Positions 29,523 through 35,975 of a DNA stretch of 49,400 nt are shown piece after piece. The stretch comes from Stenotrophomonas sp. UBA2302 (GTDB lineage Bacteria > Pseudomonadota > Gammaproteobacteria > Xanthomonadales > Xanthomonadaceae): contig DDVW01000053.1 in NCBI GenBank assembly GCA_002345545.1, positions 147,036 to 196,435 of the forward strand. The letters run 5' to 3'. The notes beneath the pieces are model-generated. The model had not been told where the DNA came from. It saw only the letters and a program-made list of their open reading frames with translations, and made no database searches. Every line of letters begins with the position of its first letter. Within the stretch, counting starts at the first letter, position 1. The translations under genes and the position numbers were made by a program.

Positions 29523-30014
29523 TCAATAACCGATGACGCGATACGGCACCACCGGTACGAACTGCACTTCCTTGCAGCCGTCATAGCGGCTGCAACTGCC
29601 GAAGTAGCCCGGGCCCCAGTAGCGCTGGCGGGCGTCGCGGTTGTACGGGCTGTTGTAGAAATCCGGGCGATAGAGGTTGCCCGAGCCGTGGTAGCGCAGC
29701 GGCGTCACCGCCTCCGGCGCATCATTGCGCGAAGTCTGCGCCACCGAAGGCGTGCCCTGCGCATCGACGTAACCGAATTCGCTGTCGTAGCGGACCAGCC
29801 GGTAATAGATGGTTTCCCCATCCTGCTGGCGGCTGCGCAGGCGCTCCAGCGTGCCATCGCCGGCATCGGCATAGGCCTGCCCGCCTTCGAACACCACCTC
29901 GCTGGGCGTGACGATCTCTTCCTCCAGCGGCGGCGCTGCAGCCACTGCCCCCGCCGTGGCAACCGCCAGCACCAGCAGTGCTCCCGCCCTGATCAAAACC
30001 TTGTCCGCTCGCAT
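29523..30014 (-). CDS. Secreted protein of unknown function
   Basis: A 163-residue protein with a signal peptide (MRADKVLIRAG...AVAAA, cleavage near residue 27). The mature part is rich in Tyr, Asp, Arg and Gly, contains two Cys (CSRYDGC), and ends VPVVPYRVIGY. No domain recognised. A strong ribosome-binding site (GGAGG, six bases before ATG) supports the start at 30014. A TATAAT hexamer at 30175-30180 would give a leader of about 150 bases. Confidence 0.7.
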   Translation of the reverse strand: MRADKVLIRAGALLVLAVATAGAVAAAPPLEEEIVTPSEVVFEGGQAYADAGDGTLERLRSRQQDGETIYYRLVRYDSEFGYVDAQGTPSVAQTSRNDAPEAVTPLRYHGSGNLYRPDFYNSPYNRDARQRYWGPGYFGSCSRYDGCKEVQFVPVVPYRVIGY

Positions 30015-30174
30015 ACCTATCCTCCGTGAAAGCCGCCGGGAGCCTGCCATGCCGTCTCCGGGCCAATGGGTTCAACCGTCGCCTCCCCCATCGGGAAGCG
30101 TGCCACCTCAACTGCGCTCAAACCAACGCCGGCCCCGCTTCAAGCGGATGCTTTGCCGGCATCAAAGCGCCCCG

Positions 30175-30213: not shown

Positions 30214-30858
30214 TCACGTACCAGGCATCGCGGCAGGCCGCACTGCAATTGCCTGTGCATGCCGCCGCAACGACCGGGAAATGACCTCGCGTGCCTCATC
30301 CACATCGCCCCAGCCTTCAAGCCGGATGTCCCCGCCATCGGGCAGATCCTTGTAGACGCGGAAGAACGCCTCGATGCGCTGGCGTTCGATCAGCGGCAGG
30401 TCATCCAGCGTGCGGATGTCGCGGTAAGCGGGGGCCACCACGTCCACCGGCACGCCGATGATCTTCTCGTCGGCCTCGCCGCGATCGTGCATGCGCAACA
30501 CACCCAGCGGGCGGAAGCGCAGCGTTGCGCCGGGCTGGACCGGTGAGCGGGTCAGCACCAGCGCATCCAGTGGATCGCCATCGCCGGCCAGGGTACGCGG
30601 CAGCGAGCCGTAGTTGGCCGGATAGGCCACCGGCATTGACAGGAAGCGGTCCACCCGCAACTCGCCATCCCTGCCCAGCTCGTACTTGATCGTACCGCCG
30701 GCGGGAATCTCCACCACCATCAGCACCTCGTCCGGCGCCAGCGATGGCTGCGGCAGTTGCAGCGGATGCCGCATGTCGGCATCGGCCGCCACCATTCCGG
30801 GTAATAGCGCCAGCAAGCAGGACAACGGCAAAAACAGGCGACTGCGCTTTAGCATCAT
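30214..30858 (-). CDS. Secreted (periplasmic) inorganic pyrophosphatase
   Basis: A 214-residue family I soluble pyrophosphatase, hydrolysing PPi to two phosphates. The family signature is D93-G-D-P-L-D98, and the N-terminal EIPAGGTIKYE is typical. Unlike the cytoplasmic housekeeping enzyme it has a signal peptide (residues 1-25, PLSCLLALLPGMVAADA), so it should act in the periplasm. It is six bases downstream of a phosphatase-like gene and is the last gene of the phytase unit, so it probably releases phosphate from PPi produced or met in the envelope. Confidence 0.9.
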   Translation of the reverse strand: MMLKRSRLFLPLSCLLALLPGMVAADADMRHPLQLPQPSLAPDEVLMVVEIPAGGTIKYELGRDGELRVDRFLSMPVAYPANYGSLPRTLAGDGDPLDALVLTRSPVQPGATLRFRPLGVLRMHDRGEADEKIIGVPVDVVAPAYRDIRTLDDLPLIERQRIEAFFRVYKDLPDGGDIRLEGWGDVDEAREVISRSLRRHAQAIAVRPAAMPGT

Positions 30859-30864
30859 CGTTCC

Positions 30865-32238
30865 CTATTCCCAGCAACGGTCCGCACGTCCCTTCGGTGA
30901 GGCGGCACGCGGGCAATCACGCTGCGGGATACGGCCTTCGGTGACTTCGTCGAACTGCTTGCTGCCATCGGCGGCACGCGTGATCCTGAAGGCGTCATAC
31001 AGGCGTCCGGTGGCGGTGCGCGCCTCGTAGGACAGCTGCTGCCCATCCAGCCGCAGCACCTGGAACAGCTGCGTATCCTCGGCCACCGGCCGCATCGTCG
31101 CCCGTGCCTGCGGTGACAGCCGGTACTGCTTGGGCCCGGCCACCGAGGAGATGTACTGCGGCAGGACGGCATCGTCACCGGCGCGGCGGCCATAGGTGTG
31201 ATCGTGACCCTGCAACACCAGATCGACCTTGTGGTGTTGCAACACCGGCCGGATCTGACCGGCCAGCACCGAGGTGTCGCGCTCGGCGCGCAACGGATAC
31301 AGCGGCTGATGCACCACTACGATGTTCCAAGGCCGGGTGCTGGCCGCGAGCACACCCTCAAGCCAACGCGCCTGCGCCGTTGCCGTGCCCAGATCCAGCG
31401 CCGAGGTGCCGTCCAGCACCACCACCCGCGCGCCCTGGTAATCGAACCAGTAAGTGGTACTGGCCGCTGCCGCCACACCATTGCCCGGCAGCGCGAAGCT
31501 CACCGGCCAGTGCGCGCCCAGCACGCGACGCTCCTGCGGGGTGTCTTCGAACTCTTCGAAATACTCGTGGTTGCCCGCCGCCGGCGCGATTGCCGTGCCC
31601 GGCAGCAGGCCGCCGCCCGCGGCAAACCATTCGCCCCATTCGTTGTCATCCTCGCCGTCGCCACCACTGACCAGGTCACCGGCAAACAGCACCAGCCGCG
31701 CCTCCGCTGCACTCTGCCAACCCTGGCGGATGACGCGACTGACGTGGCTGAGGTTCTTGTTCTGGGTATCACCGAAGTACAGCAACGTCAGCGGTTGTGA
31801 GACCGCACCCGCCGTGCGGAAGTGCGTCCAGGCGCTCCAGCCGCCCTTTCCCTGCACGCGGTAGGCATAGAGCGTGTCCGGCTGCAGCCCGTCGATATCG
31901 GCGCGATGGTGTTGCGAGGGCCCGTTTTCGGTCTGCAGCAGGCGGTTGCCTGCAGTGATCCTGCGCAGCTCGCCCATGTCCGGAGAATCACCGGCGATTG
32001 CCAGCTCCAACTCTGCTTCCGTGGCCAGCGGCGAGGTACGCCAGGCCACCGAAAACCCGGTACTGGCATCCTGTGCCGGTGACGCGACGATGCGGTCGGG
32101 CAGATCACCGGCCGCGTAATGCCGGCTGCCCGACGGCACCTGGGTATTGGGCTCTGCGGCCGGAGCGGCCCCCACCGCTCCGGCCGCACCCACCATCGCC
32201 ACCACCAGCAACCATGATTTTCCGGGTACAGGCATCAC
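30865..32238 (-). CDS. Purple-acid-phosphatase-like metallophosphoesterase
   Basis: A 457-residue secreted protein with a signal peptide (GKSWLLVVAMVGAAGAVGA). An N-terminal Fn3-like domain (about 40-150) is followed by a dinuclear-metal phosphoesterase domain. The five metal motifs are present: YFGDTQ, FAGDLVSGGD, GNHEYF, VVHQPLYPL and LQGHDHTYGR. This layout is that of purple acid phosphatases, which cleave phosphomonoesters including phytate intermediates. The start overlaps the phytase stop (ATGA), giving coupling. Substrate is inference from context. Confidence 0.85.
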   Translation of the reverse strand: MMPVPGKSWLLVVAMVGAAGAVGAAPAAEPNTQVPSGSRHYAAGDLPDRIVASPAQDASTGFSVAWRTSPLATEAELELAIAGDSPDMGELRRITAGNRLLQTENGPSQHHRADIDGLQPDTLYAYRVQGKGGWSAWTHFRTAGAVSQPLTLLYFGDTQNKNLSHVSRVIRQGWQSAAEARLVLFAGDLVSGGDGEDDNEWGEWFAAGGGLLPGTAIAPAAGNHEYFEEFEDTPQERRVLGAHWPVSFALPGNGVAAAASTTYWFDYQGARVVVLDGTSALDLGTATAQARWLEGVLAASTRPWNIVVVHQPLYPLRAERDTSVLAGQIRPVLQHHKVDLVLQGHDHTYGRRAGDDAVLPQYISSVAGPKQYRLSPQARATMRPVAEDTQLFQVLRLDGQQLSYEARTATGRLYDAFRITRAADGSKQFDEVTEGRIPQRDCPRAASPKGRADRCWE

Positions 32239-33338
32239 AGCGCACAGTCCTGGGGCAACGACAAGGCCGCAGCGATATCGCGCCAGTCGAACGCCACCAC
32301 ACCCTGATCGTCATGCACGGCGTACAGCGCACCTTGCGGGAAGCGTGCCGACGCCTGTTGACTGTTCCAGATGCCGTCGGTGTTGGCCACCATGTCGCCA
32401 TGGAAGGCACCGGCATGGGCCAGCGTCTTGCGGTCGAACAGGTGGAACACACTGCGATCCTTGCCCTGCTCGGTGGTGATCCACCAGCCGCCCTCGCCGC
32501 AGGTGCGCAGCATCACGCCTTCGGCCTGCGCCTTGAACACGTCATTGCCAAACGTGTTGCCGGTGAACTCGCCGGCCAGCGTGTAGACCTTGAATTCACT
32601 GGCATAGGTTTCGTCCTCCTCGGCCACCAGCAGGCGGTCGTTGCCCGGATCGCCCCAGATCGATTCCACCACCCGCAGCGCACCCCTGGGCGTGGTGTCG
32701 CCGATGCTGCGCACCAGCTCGGCCTGCACACCACGACCATCAACCGTCACCCGGTAGCGGCGCACACGCTCGTTCAAGCGTTCCAGCGCCGGCAGGATGT
32801 CGTTGCCGGCAGCGTCCTCGCCATCGTCATACGAATCGGTGACGTACACGTCGTAGCCGTCCTGCAATGGTTTCATCCACAGCCCGTACGGCTTGCGCAG
32901 ATCGTCGCCGGCAAACACGCCCAGCGGCTTGAAGTCGGGCAGCTGCAGCACCTGCACCCGGTGGTTGTCACGCTCGACGACGAACACCAGGTCGCCGCTC
33001 ACCGCGATGCCATTGGGACGATCGAACTGGCCAAGTGCGGTACCGGGGCTGCCGACATCGCGCAGGTGCTTGCCGGTCTGGCCGTCGTACACCACCAGCT
33101 TGTCCGTGGCCTTGGCGGTGGCGATCAACCAGACCTCGCCATCGGCACGGGTCCAGCTGGCGGGCGAGTCGATGTTGTCCTCCGGCGTCATCGGCGTCAG
33201 CAACGCCTCGGCCACGCGCACCGCTGGCAGGGCACCTTCGGCCACATCGGCGGCGCTGGGCGGAGGCACGCTGTCCGCCGCCGGCTGGCAGGCCGTCAGC
33301 ACCAGCGTGACAGCCGCGTACAGCAGTGCGGCCCTCAC
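32235..33338 (-). CDS. Beta-propeller-type phytase lipoprotein
   Basis: A 367-residue protein with a lipoprotein signal (lipobox LTAC, Cys17) and repeated beta-propeller-like blades (DRPNGIAVSGDLVFVVERDN, then KPYGLWMKPLQDGYDVYVTDS, and GVMLRTCGEGGWWITTEQ). It resembles the beta-propeller phytases, calcium-dependent enzymes that remove phosphates from phytate. The start is a GTG overlapping the upstream receptor stop by four bases. Without an alignment I cannot verify all phytate- and calcium-binding residues, so a related propeller is possible. Confidence 0.75.
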   Translation of the reverse strand: MRAALLYAAVTLVLTACQPAADSVPPPSAADVAEGALPAVRVAEALLTPMTPEDNIDSPASWTRADGEVWLIATAKATDKLVVYDGQTGKHLRDVGSPGTALGQFDRPNGIAVSGDLVFVVERDNHRVQVLQLPDFKPLGVFAGDDLRKPYGLWMKPLQDGYDVYVTDSYDDGEDAAGNDILPALERLNERVRRYRVTVDGRGVQAELVRSIGDTTPRGALRVVESIWGDPGNDRLLVAEEDETYASEFKVYTLAGEFTGNTFGNDVFKAQAEGVMLRTCGEGGWWITTEQGKDRSVFHLFDRKTLAHAGAFHGDMVANTDGIWNSQQASARFPQGALYAVHDDQGVVAFDWRDIAAALSLPQDCAL

Positions 33339-35908
33339 AGCGCCACCTTCAGGCCGATGGCATAGGTGCGACCATATTCCTCGTTCTGCAGCGTTCGCGA
33401 GCGCACGCCCTGGTACAGCTCCAGCGGCTTGTCGAGCAGGTTGGAAGCCTCCAGGTACAGGCTCACGTTTCTGCTGAACTGGTAATCCAGGCTGAAATCC
33501 AGCTGCGTATGCGGCGCGACGTAGATGTCATAGGCGCTGTTCTTGCCGATGGTGTCCAGGTATTCACTGCGGTACACACCGGCCAGGCGCGTGCTGAAGC
33601 CGCCCCATTCGTAGCCGATATGCGCGCTGTACACATTCCTGGACGCACGCGGCAGCATGAAGTCGTCATCTGCACGATCGGCCATGCCCGGATCGAAATC
33701 GGTGTCCAGCCAGGTACCGCTCAGACCCAGCAACAGGCCGGACCAGGCGCCCGGCAGGAATGCCAGCTGCTGCTGCCAGTTGAACTCGGCGCCGAACACC
33801 CTGGCCTTGTCACCGTTGATCGCGCGGGTGACCTCGAAGCCCGGATAGGCGGCATCCTCATTGGTGACGGTCTCCACGATGTAGCCGTCGATGGACTTGT
33901 TGAACAGGCCCAGCGCGACAATACCGGTGCCGTCCTCGCCCAGATAGCGCTCGAACGACAGGTCCACGTTGCTGGATTCGTACGGGTCCAGCATCGGATT
34001 GCCAACGCGCACTTCCTCGTCATCACGGTTCACGCCCAGCCGCGGCGACACATCGCCGAAGGACGGGCGCGCCACGCTCTTGTTGAGCGACCCGCGCAGC
34101 ACCCAGTTGTTGCCGGTGTCATAGCGCAGGTGCAGGCCCGGCAGCACGCTGGTGTAGCTGTTGCTTGCAGTCCGCGGCGTCACCGTGACCGTCTCGCCAT
34201 CGGCAGCGATGTCCACCTGGTTGCCGCTGGCATTGAACTGCGTGCCTTCCACGCGCACGCCACCGATCACCCGCAGCGCGCCGATGTCCCAGGTGCCCAT
34301 CGCATAGGCGGAGAAGATGTCTTCGCTGGCGGTGTAGTCCTCTTCCAGCGAGGCCATCATGTTGCTGGCCACGTCACCGGGACGCGCACTGTACAGGTGG
34401 CCATTGGCAGCCCACCACGCCCGCATCGCGGCCGGGTTCATGCCCTGGCCCAGACTGCCGCCACGGTGGCCGAGGGTCTTGCCGTTCCAGTCGGACAGAT
34501 CGACATCCGGACCCCGGCGCAGTTCGGTTTCATCGACGTTGACCGCGCGCTCGCGCCAGCGGCCGAGCAGGCCGAACTTGTAGCTGCCGCGCTCGCCGTC
34601 GAAACGGATATTGACCTGCGCACTGTGCTCGCTGTCGTCCACCTGCTTGGGCCCCAGCACCACGCGGTCGAATTCGTAATTGCCGTTGTCCATCCAGCCG
34701 GTGTCGCTCAACCCCAGGCCCGGAATTCCACTGTTCTGGTCGAGGCTGGCGGACAGGTCGTCACCGGCGTAGTCGAAGCGCGCCTCCATCTCGTCATTCA
34801 CCCGCTCACGGGTCTTGGTATAGCCCAGCCGGTAATCGAGCACGGCATTGGCCAGGCGGTTCTCGCCCCCGAGGCTGGCGGCAAAGGTGTCCTCTTCCTT
34901 GGTGCGGTTGCGCATGCGTTTGCTGATCGCATCGGCCGGCAATTCGGCGATCTCGTAGCGGCCATTGCCCAGCGCGCTGATGCTCTCACCGTCTCCCAGG
35001 CCGAAAACGGTGCGCTGGCGGGTCTCGGCGTCGTCGAAACGGCTGTACAAGGTGCGCAGGTAGTAGCGGTTGGCATCGTCCGGACGCCAGTCGAAATTGA
35101 GGTTGGCACCCGTGCGCTGGCGCTCGATGCTGTACTTGCGGTGCTGCAGGTCGACGGCAACCAGGTCGTCATCGGCGCCCCCCTCGAAGGTGTCGTATTC
35201 GACCTCGGTGTTGTCCGATTCGAAGGTGCGCTTCTGGTGGTTCAGCCCCAGCGCCACGCCGAAGGTGTCGTTGAACACTTCGCTGTAATTGAATGCCGCC
35301 TTGGGGCTGGTCTTGCCGGACAGTTCCTGGTGACTGGCTTCGACCTTGCCCTTCAGCGAACGCCCGTCACGATCGAACGCCGAGGCCGACTCCACCACCA
35401 CGCTGCCACCAATGGCATCACCGGGCATGTCCGGAGTGACCGACTTGATCACCCGCAGGCGTTCGGTGGAATCGGTGGGGATCACGTCCAGCGGTGCCGC
35501 CCGCGAAGTGTCCTCCGGGGTGCCGATGGCGATGCCGTCGATGCTGACGCTGTTCAGGGCCGCATCCAGACCACGAATCACCACGAAGCGGCCCTCGCCC
35601 TGGTCACGGGTGACGCTGACGCCCGGCAGCCGCTGCAGCGACTCGGCGACGTTCATGTCCGGGTAGTCGCCCATCGAATCGGACGCCACCGCATCCTGGA
35701 TGGCATCGGCATCACGCTTCAGTTCCACCGCACGGGCCTGCGCCTCGATCTGCGCACGTACTTCGATGCGCTCCAGATCGGTGGCCACCGCGGCGCCGGC
35801 GGCGACCACTGCCGTTCCCTCCGAGTCAAGCTGCCGCGCTTCCACCGGCATGGCGGCCATGCAGGCCACCGCGCTCGTTACCGCCACCACCAGAACACGC
35901 TTGTGCAC
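33335..35908 (-). CDS. TonB-dependent outer-membrane receptor, phytase-linked
   Basis: An 857-residue TonB-dependent transporter. After a signal peptide (HKRVLVVAVTSAVACMAAMPVEA) comes a plug domain (about 60-180) with NVAESLQRLPGVSVTRDQGEGRF and VIRGLDAALNSVSIDG, then a 22-strand beta-barrel region with SVARPSFGDVSPRLG. It ends in KVAL rather than the commoner Phe. The start is a GTG at 35908 preceded by GGGGG; an ATG at 35929 adds seven residues. The downstream coupled phytase suggests it imports phytate or a breakdown product. Ligand is inference. Confidence 0.9.
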   Translation of the reverse strand: MHKRVLVVAVTSAVACMAAMPVEARQLDSEGTAVVAAGAAVATDLERIEVRAQIEAQARAVELKRDADAIQDAVASDSMGDYPDMNVAESLQRLPGVSVTRDQGEGRFVVIRGLDAALNSVSIDGIAIGTPEDTSRAAPLDVIPTDSTERLRVIKSVTPDMPGDAIGGSVVVESASAFDRDGRSLKGKVEASHQELSGKTSPKAAFNYSEVFNDTFGVALGLNHQKRTFESDNTEVEYDTFEGGADDDLVAVDLQHRKYSIERQRTGANLNFDWRPDDANRYYLRTLYSRFDDAETRQRTVFGLGDGESISALGNGRYEIAELPADAISKRMRNRTKEEDTFAASLGGENRLANAVLDYRLGYTKTRERVNDEMEARFDYAGDDLSASLDQNSGIPGLGLSDTGWMDNGNYEFDRVVLGPKQVDDSEHSAQVNIRFDGERGSYKFGLLGRWRERAVNVDETELRRGPDVDLSDWNGKTLGHRGGSLGQGMNPAAMRAWWAANGHLYSARPGDVASNMMASLEEDYTASEDIFSAYAMGTWDIGALRVIGGVRVEGTQFNASGNQVDIAADGETVTVTPRTASNSYTSVLPGLHLRYDTGNNWVLRGSLNKSVARPSFGDVSPRLGVNRDDEEVRVGNPMLDPYESSNVDLSFERYLGEDGTGIVALGLFNKSIDGYIVETVTNEDAAYPGFEVTRAINGDKARVFGAEFNWQQQLAFLPGAWSGLLLGLSGTWLDTDFDPGMADRADDDFMLPRASRNVYSAHIGYEWGGFSTRLAGVYRSEYLDTIGKNSAYDIYVAPHTQLDFSLDYQFSRNVSLYLEASNLLDKPLELYQGVRSRTLQNEEYGRTYAIGLKVAL

Positions 35909-35968
35909 ACCAGCCCCCGAACTCTCCATAAGATGGCGTGCAAGGTATTTCCGTCCGGTTGCGTCGAT

Positions 35969-35975
35969 ATGACAG
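35969..35975 (-). promoter_or_regulatory. Candidate PhoB half-site upstream of the receptor
   Basis: On the minus strand CTGTCAT is exactly the 7-base Pho-box repeat. The companion repeat 11 bases away on either side is poor (about 3 of 7). It is 60 bases upstream of the start. A single half-site is weak evidence. Confidence 0.3.

Follow-up and report, generated by a model that had tools for sequence, protein, structure and literature searches.

Gene layout

The 49,400-nucleotide stretch of Stenotrophomonas sp. UBA2302 analysed here (contig DDVW01000053.1; the whole stretch is referred to as the window) carries four adjoining genes that encode a TonB-dependent receptor, a phytase-like propeller lipoprotein (PHY), a calcineurin-type phosphoesterase resembling purple acid phosphatases (PAP) and an exported family I inorganic pyrophosphatase (PPA). 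They are preceded by a Pho-box-like element (Table 1), and the operon is probably Pho-controlled, judging from its upstream sequence. The positions of the four genes and their common direction on the minus strand, as proposed in an initial annotation, were confirmed, and so were the GTGA overlap of receptor and PHY genes (33335-33338) and the six-base gap between the PAP stop codon and the PPA ATG (30859-30864). The ATGA overlap given there for PHY and PAP had to be corrected. This junction reads GTGATG, so that PAP may start at GTG 32238 (overlap GTGA) or at ATG 32235 (TGATG). For the receptor, the GTG at 35908 matches the start region of relatives, with an in-frame ATG at 35929 as the alternative; its product scored 660.9 bits with TIGR01782 (cut-off 310), and the barrel, plug and subfamily cut-offs were all exceeded. 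The export signals claimed for the three enzymes are supported in relatives by a heuristic (not SignalP) for a hydrophobic N-terminal run and, in PHY, a loosely defined lipobox-like motif.

Table 1. Genes and upstream elements of the operon in the window
Feature	Position	Strand	Remarks
Pho-box-like element CTGTCAT-ATCG-ACGCAAC, two half-sites 11 bp apart	35958..35975	-	pstS-type matrix score 12.7
Putative -10 element TACCTT	35942..35947	-	10 bp past the Pho-box-like element; presumed role
TonB-dependent receptor (TIGR01782 type)	33335..35908	-	PF00593 and PF07715 over cut-off; start aligned with relatives
Phytase-like propeller lipoprotein (PHY)	32235..33338	-	
PAP-like calcineurin-type phosphoesterase with PAP N-terminal domain (PAP)	30865..32238	-	PF00149 67.5 bits, PF16656 56.6 bits
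Exported family I inorganic pyrophosphatase (PPA)	30214..30858	-	PF00719 160.8 bits (cut-off 23.5)

Occurrence of the gene set among relatives

To trace the gene set, 247 genomes of the family were searched with profiles for PHY (threshold E 1e-10) and for the exported PPA (threshold E 1e-60). PHY-family matches were obtained in 193 genomes and members of the exported PPA clade in 52. For comparison, 88 loci were collected (87 distinct, since L015 and L097 represent a single contig). This non-random sample comprises 18 loci of PHY homologues, 60 hand-picked matches to the PHY profile, 40 of them at or near the top rank and 20 lower, and ten loci from PPA matches. By PHY, the closest named relatives are Stenotrophomonas humi and S. 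pictorum (86%).

A receptor designated type A, PHY, PAP and PPA are encoded in one direction in 27 of the 88 loci, among them L013, in which PPA precedes PAP. All three enzymes are present in 12 more loci: eight have a divergent type B receptor, three have a divergent type C receptor (two of these share a contig), and one lies at a contig edge. The four-gene order sought in Xanthomonadaceae does recur, and because it is found in many genomes the arrangement is more than chance, but the full set is a minority within the family. Separation of the genes in most relatives, which the initial annotation had named as a possible refutation, was not observed for PPA: wherever present, it stays with this type of locus. 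Of 52 exported PPA genes, 45 lie within 3 kb of PHY (coordinates compared by eye). The remaining seven (L140-L146) each adjoin a divergent TonB receptor gene, five of them with PAP, and PHY was not found in the fetched stretch of any of the seven; in L140 and L141 only receptor and PPA remain. At least one gene of GGT, MBL-fold or UPP type is present in the fetched flank of 47 of the 50 PPA-bearing loci, and a class III aminotransferase gene is also there in 26 of the 50.

Several further genes were noted in these regions. In L119 (11228-11965), L122 (6378-7085) and L125 (6870-7616), a glycosyltransferase-like gene, assigned to PF04488 in both loci tested (L119 and L122), lies between PAP and the aminotransferase gene; these three loci have receptor, PHY and PAP matches and no PPA. 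Downstream of the operon in the window, positions 29523-30050 encode on the same strand a small protein with a hydrophobic N-terminus and without a Pfam match, which is also present in L001, L002, L004, L009 and L080, with two copies in L001, L002 and L080.

The exported pyrophosphatase

Pyrophosphatases of family I are generally known from the cytoplasm, in a housekeeping role. PPA belongs to this family by its PF00719 match and its catalytic set: E50, K58, E60, R71, Y79, Y83, D93, D95, D98, D125, D130, K132, Y169 and K170 are at least 97% conserved in 41 aligned sequences (including both L015 and L097), and their catalytic roles are presumably those of the E. coli enzyme. Departures confined to single rows of the alignment are VDCF, AGGGDPLD and GYKSTT. 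With 171.1 bits, the window PPA stays below the equivalog cut-off of NCBIfam PRK01250 (200 bits). Its N-terminus is hydrophobic, as in 46 of 49 exported relatives versus none of 12 housekeeping pyrophosphatases. The secreted family I pyrophosphatase of the initial annotation is therefore upheld as a prediction, with an intact active site.

The possibility that a housekeeping gene had come to lie here by accident was rejected on the profile searches of the family and the order and on a tree. Searching 12 genomes with PF00719 yielded two genes, PPA and a housekeeping copy, in 11; the single-gene genome (G011, locus L014) has no PPA at its PHY locus. The order-wide profile search of 250 genomes gave 23 matches of at least 305 bits, the other listed ones reaching at most 180 bits, and the lowest-scoring PPA match of the family-wide search had 295 bits. 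Housekeeping pyrophosphatases show 39-44% identity to the window PPA, and in a quick tree, in which 25 of 58 inner branches are weak, the 50 exported enzymes are set apart from the 12 housekeeping ones with 100% SH-aLRT. The PPA of Stenotrophomonas ginsengisoli (L006, 9477-10097), located at the same place, has diverged extremely far (40% identity; its end branch in the tree measures 5.8) and is possibly decaying or re-purposed.

Neither an exported bacterial family I pyrophosphatase nor this four-gene set was noticed among the open-access papers listed; for exported or periplasmic inorganic pyrophosphatases, the listing contained one paper, on house dust mite allergens.

Exchange of the TonB receptor

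A TonB receptor gene stands beside the exported PPA in 49 of 50 PPA loci, the last one being at a contig edge. Receptors are co-directional and of type A in 29 loci, divergent and of type B in 12, and divergent and of type C in eight. One example each of types B and C was scanned, and both contain TonB barrel and plug domains; the type C protein passes TIGR01782 and bears a carboxypeptidase-regulatory-like domain, the type B protein is below the TIGR01782 cut-off. Placed on the PPA tree, the receptor label changes 14-15 times, and at least three changes involving type A are forced by supported branches. Closely related PPAs with unlike receptors are found in L098/L099 and L092/L115. Judging from these sequences, the receptor was swapped among at least three types around the same enzymes.

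These arrangements bear on the question of what is carried. The cargo could be inorganic pyrophosphate (PPi), metal-PPi or a PPi-yielding ligand, with PPA as the core of the system and PHY and PAP as optional parts. The two loci with receptor and PPA only, the five with receptor, PAP and PPA and without PHY, the constant neighbourhood of PPA and receptor and the retained catalytic residues of PPA are consistent with this proposal. Nevertheless, PHY occurs without PPA far more often than PPA without PHY, soluble pyrophosphatases are inactive on most phosphoanhydrides of larger molecules, and a PPi receptor was not noticed among the open-access papers listed. On balance, a PPi-centred function appears unlikely.

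The propeller lipoprotein and the phosphoesterase

The window PHY has the lipobox LTAC. Among relatives, a hydrophobic N-terminal run is present in 80 of 80 PHYs and a loosely defined lipobox-like motif in 74 of them. In comparisons of its predicted propeller with solved folds, phytases were closest; sequence searches of the PDB returned NHL proteins only, so that the phytase match arose from the fold comparison. The equivalents of the phytase-site residues D55, K76, R122, Y159, E211, E260, Q279 and D314, which are D57, K76, R123, Y151, E225, E273, Q291 and D321 in PHY, are invariant in all 82 aligned sequences (81 distinct), while D56 is replaced by S and K77 by A. From the motif set YG, EGXXXD, DXEG and DG (PMC12406696 Table 1), YG and DG are present. 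The PHY sequence ESIWGD resembles ESIAVD of a Pedobacter enzyme listed there as validated. The pattern N-N-[VI]-D-[ILV]-R-[YDQ], taken from the accessible text of PMC4017775, is absent, and the region reads RPNGIAV. As a formal label, canonical phytase had to be dropped for PHY, which does not reach PF02333 and lacks several motifs. Its relative in L017 comes close with 18.7 bits (gathering score 21), and of 2219 homologues, 120 of which were listed, at least P0085, P0109 and P0120 have PF02333 assigned.

These results could also indicate that PHY is not an enzyme at all. It might be a surface lipoprotein that captures the ligand together with the receptor and leaves the chemistry to PAP and PPA, for which the lipoprotein signal, the loss of several phytase motif residues and the strong NHL-type sequence similarity could be cited. 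The eight invariant residues, the phytases as closest solved folds and the Pedobacter-like motif argue for catalysis instead, and a non-enzymatic PHY is considered distinctly improbable. The phytase identity initially assigned is retained for fold and invariant site residues, not for PF02333, D56/K77, DXEG and the NNVD motif; judged by sequence and modelled fold, PHY is related to beta-propeller phytases but divergent from them.

Two related groups of proteins were encountered. PHY paralogues in L128-L139, with 47-51% identity to the window PHY, are without PAP, PPA and Pho-box-like element. A canonical two-domain PF02333 phytase is encoded elsewhere in three of 12 genomes searched (Luteimonas, Pseudoxanthomonas), in L043 (415-2574), L044 and L046; an open reading frame in L046 is TonB-receptor-like by eye.

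In PAP, the scores of PF16656 and PF00149 identify a PAP N-terminal domain plus a metallophosphoesterase domain. Its motifs are GDTQ, GDLVS, GNHE, H310 and GHDH, of which the last three are kept across the aligned PAPs, and a hydrophobic N-terminal run is present in 46 of 48 PAPs of relatives. We take GDxxY to be the motif that holds the tyrosine ligand of purple acid phosphatases. This tyrosine occurs in none of 42 PAPs, the position being Ser in 39, Ala in two and Asn in one, and a 'purple' enzyme was excluded on these grounds. The motif GDXG (PMC12406696 Table 1) is not found either, since GDTQ is present in 39 of 42 rows. The enzyme is PAP-like, as initially proposed, but not a purple phosphatase.

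A Pho-box-like element upstream of the operon

To score the upstream element, a matrix was built from 24 repeats upstream of 12 of 19 PF12849 matches in six genomes (seven weaker matches were excluded); the repeats were chosen with the consensus CTGTCAY. The direct repeat is common to these pstS-type genes and the operon: in the 130 bp upstream of type A receptors, 24 of 32 loci exceeded the 95th percentile of random windows (5.5) and 22 that of shuffled sequence. A co-directional type A receptor is missing from 52 loci, of which 29 were above the random-window level, comprising 16 of 21 with PPA (15 of 20 distinct) and 13 of 31 without. Of the paralogues in L128-L139, which lie outside the set and were grouped post hoc, none of 12 surpassed the Pho-box control. 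Loci are related, and these counts are consequently not independent.

Two half-sites 11 bp apart, mostly TGTCAY and TG[CA]AA, followed by ATANCGT are recognisable in 29 of the 32 co-directional type A loci, L016, L080 and L102 being the ones that do not fit; this count is only descriptive because the pattern was drawn from the same sequences. In the alignment of the -10 region of relatives (TANCGT), the first T is present in 28 of 29 sequences and the A and the last T in all 29. Genome-wide, the element pattern gave one match in each of three out of six genomes (reversed-pattern control: none). No regulon was obtained, because these matches are at the operon itself.

The similarity of the element to those of pstS genes points to phosphate control. 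It therefore speaks against iron supply as the main purpose, with the receptor importing phytate or PPi as a metal chelate from which the enzymes free the metal. TonB receptors are classic importers of metal chelates, phytate and PPi are strong chelators, and phytic acid is named as an Fe chelator in the accessible part of PMC3400609. With the element taken into account, metal acquisition is nonetheless very improbable as the main function.

Discussion

A TonB receptor next to a phytase is, as the initial annotation noted, an arrangement already published: Fjoh_1367/Fjoh_1368 of Flavobacterium johnsoniae (PMC8115612) and a TonB-dependent transporter adjoining a phytase gene in Citromicrobium (PMC3400609) are examples. 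The receptor-phytase core of the operon is a variant of it. According to the accessible part of PMC8115612, both Flavobacterium genes are raised at low phosphate, but the phytase is listed as PF02333; in the accessible parts of both reports, an exported pyrophosphatase partner is not mentioned. PusCD of Bacteroidetes similarly is a phosphate-controlled cluster of an outer-membrane TonB-type transporter and phosphomonoesterases and phosphodiesterases, whereas its transporter is of the SusCD type and a pyrophosphatase is not mentioned in the text accessible (PMC8115612). In Caulobacter, phosphate starvation engages a PhoB regulon that includes TonB receptors and phosphatases as well as a phytase; as far as the accessible text shows, these are regulon members rather than one four-gene unit, and the pyrophosphatase is a nucleotide pyrophosphatase (PMC11208175). 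Within the same family, the secreted phytase PhyA of Xanthomonas oryzae is tied to growth on phytic acid (Chatterjee et al. 2003, via the accessible part of PMC9403785). The new part is the exported PPA beside exchangeable TonB receptors.

It appears reasonably likely that the genes form a PhoB-type phosphate-starvation operon, which would gain phosphate in the envelope from organic and condensed phosphates. The best reading, and in our view a fairly probable one, is an envelope module under Pho control that acts on inositol phosphates and other esters and consumes PPi as well. Regulation, substrates and the exact location of each enzyme, as we infer them, would then be as follows. Low phosphate would turn the operon on via the Pho-box-like element, and the receptor would carry a phosphorylated ligand over the outer membrane; phytate or lower inositol phosphates, possibly in complex with a metal, are the likeliest candidates. 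By family, PHY may strip phosphates in a Ca-dependent, phytase-like manner, PAP may finish the lower esters, and exported PPA may split PPi that enters with scavenged compounds or is released from them. The freed phosphate would be passed to the Pst transporter. Of the full envelope phosphate pathway originally proposed, the single scavenging unit, the Pho-box-like promoter and the intact PPA site are retained, while the phytase and PAP labels had to be qualified.

Several observations weigh against this module. PHY was not matched by PF02333 even at a maximal E-value of 10, its DXEG position reads QAEG with the D lost, and the N-terminal beta-propeller phytase motifs are lost, DDPAIW (from the accessible text of PMC4017775) being DSPASW. 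Beta-propeller phytases release phosphate, which leaves the origin of PPi unexplained. PPA is absent from most PHY-bearing genomes (52 versus 193), and only ten of 38 PHY loci without PPA have any of the GGT, MBL-fold or UPP genes in their flank, from which it follows that many PHY-receptor pairs sit elsewhere. Concerning control, eight of the 32 type A loci are at or below the random-window control, the second half-site is degenerate, a generic E. coli-type Pho-box consensus scored 11 in the window and up to 13 in shuffles, and a scan with sigma-70 and terminator consensus sequences revealed neither promoter nor terminator.

If the exported PPA, split from the housekeeping enzyme and partnered with exchangeable receptors, is placed at the centre, TonB-dependent PPi acquisition could be envisaged: during phosphate starvation, PPi or PPi-bearing ligands would be taken up and then hydrolysed within the envelope, PHY- and PAP-like proteins being optional. 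We assign a low probability to this idea. The presence of an exported PPA beside TonB receptors behind a Pho-type promoter makes the harvest of PPi in the envelope by bacteria directly testable. The conserved clade of exported PPAs also helps to tell which TonB receptors transport phosphorus compounds, and the repeated exchange of receptors next to one set of enzymes amounts to a natural experiment in receptor specificity.
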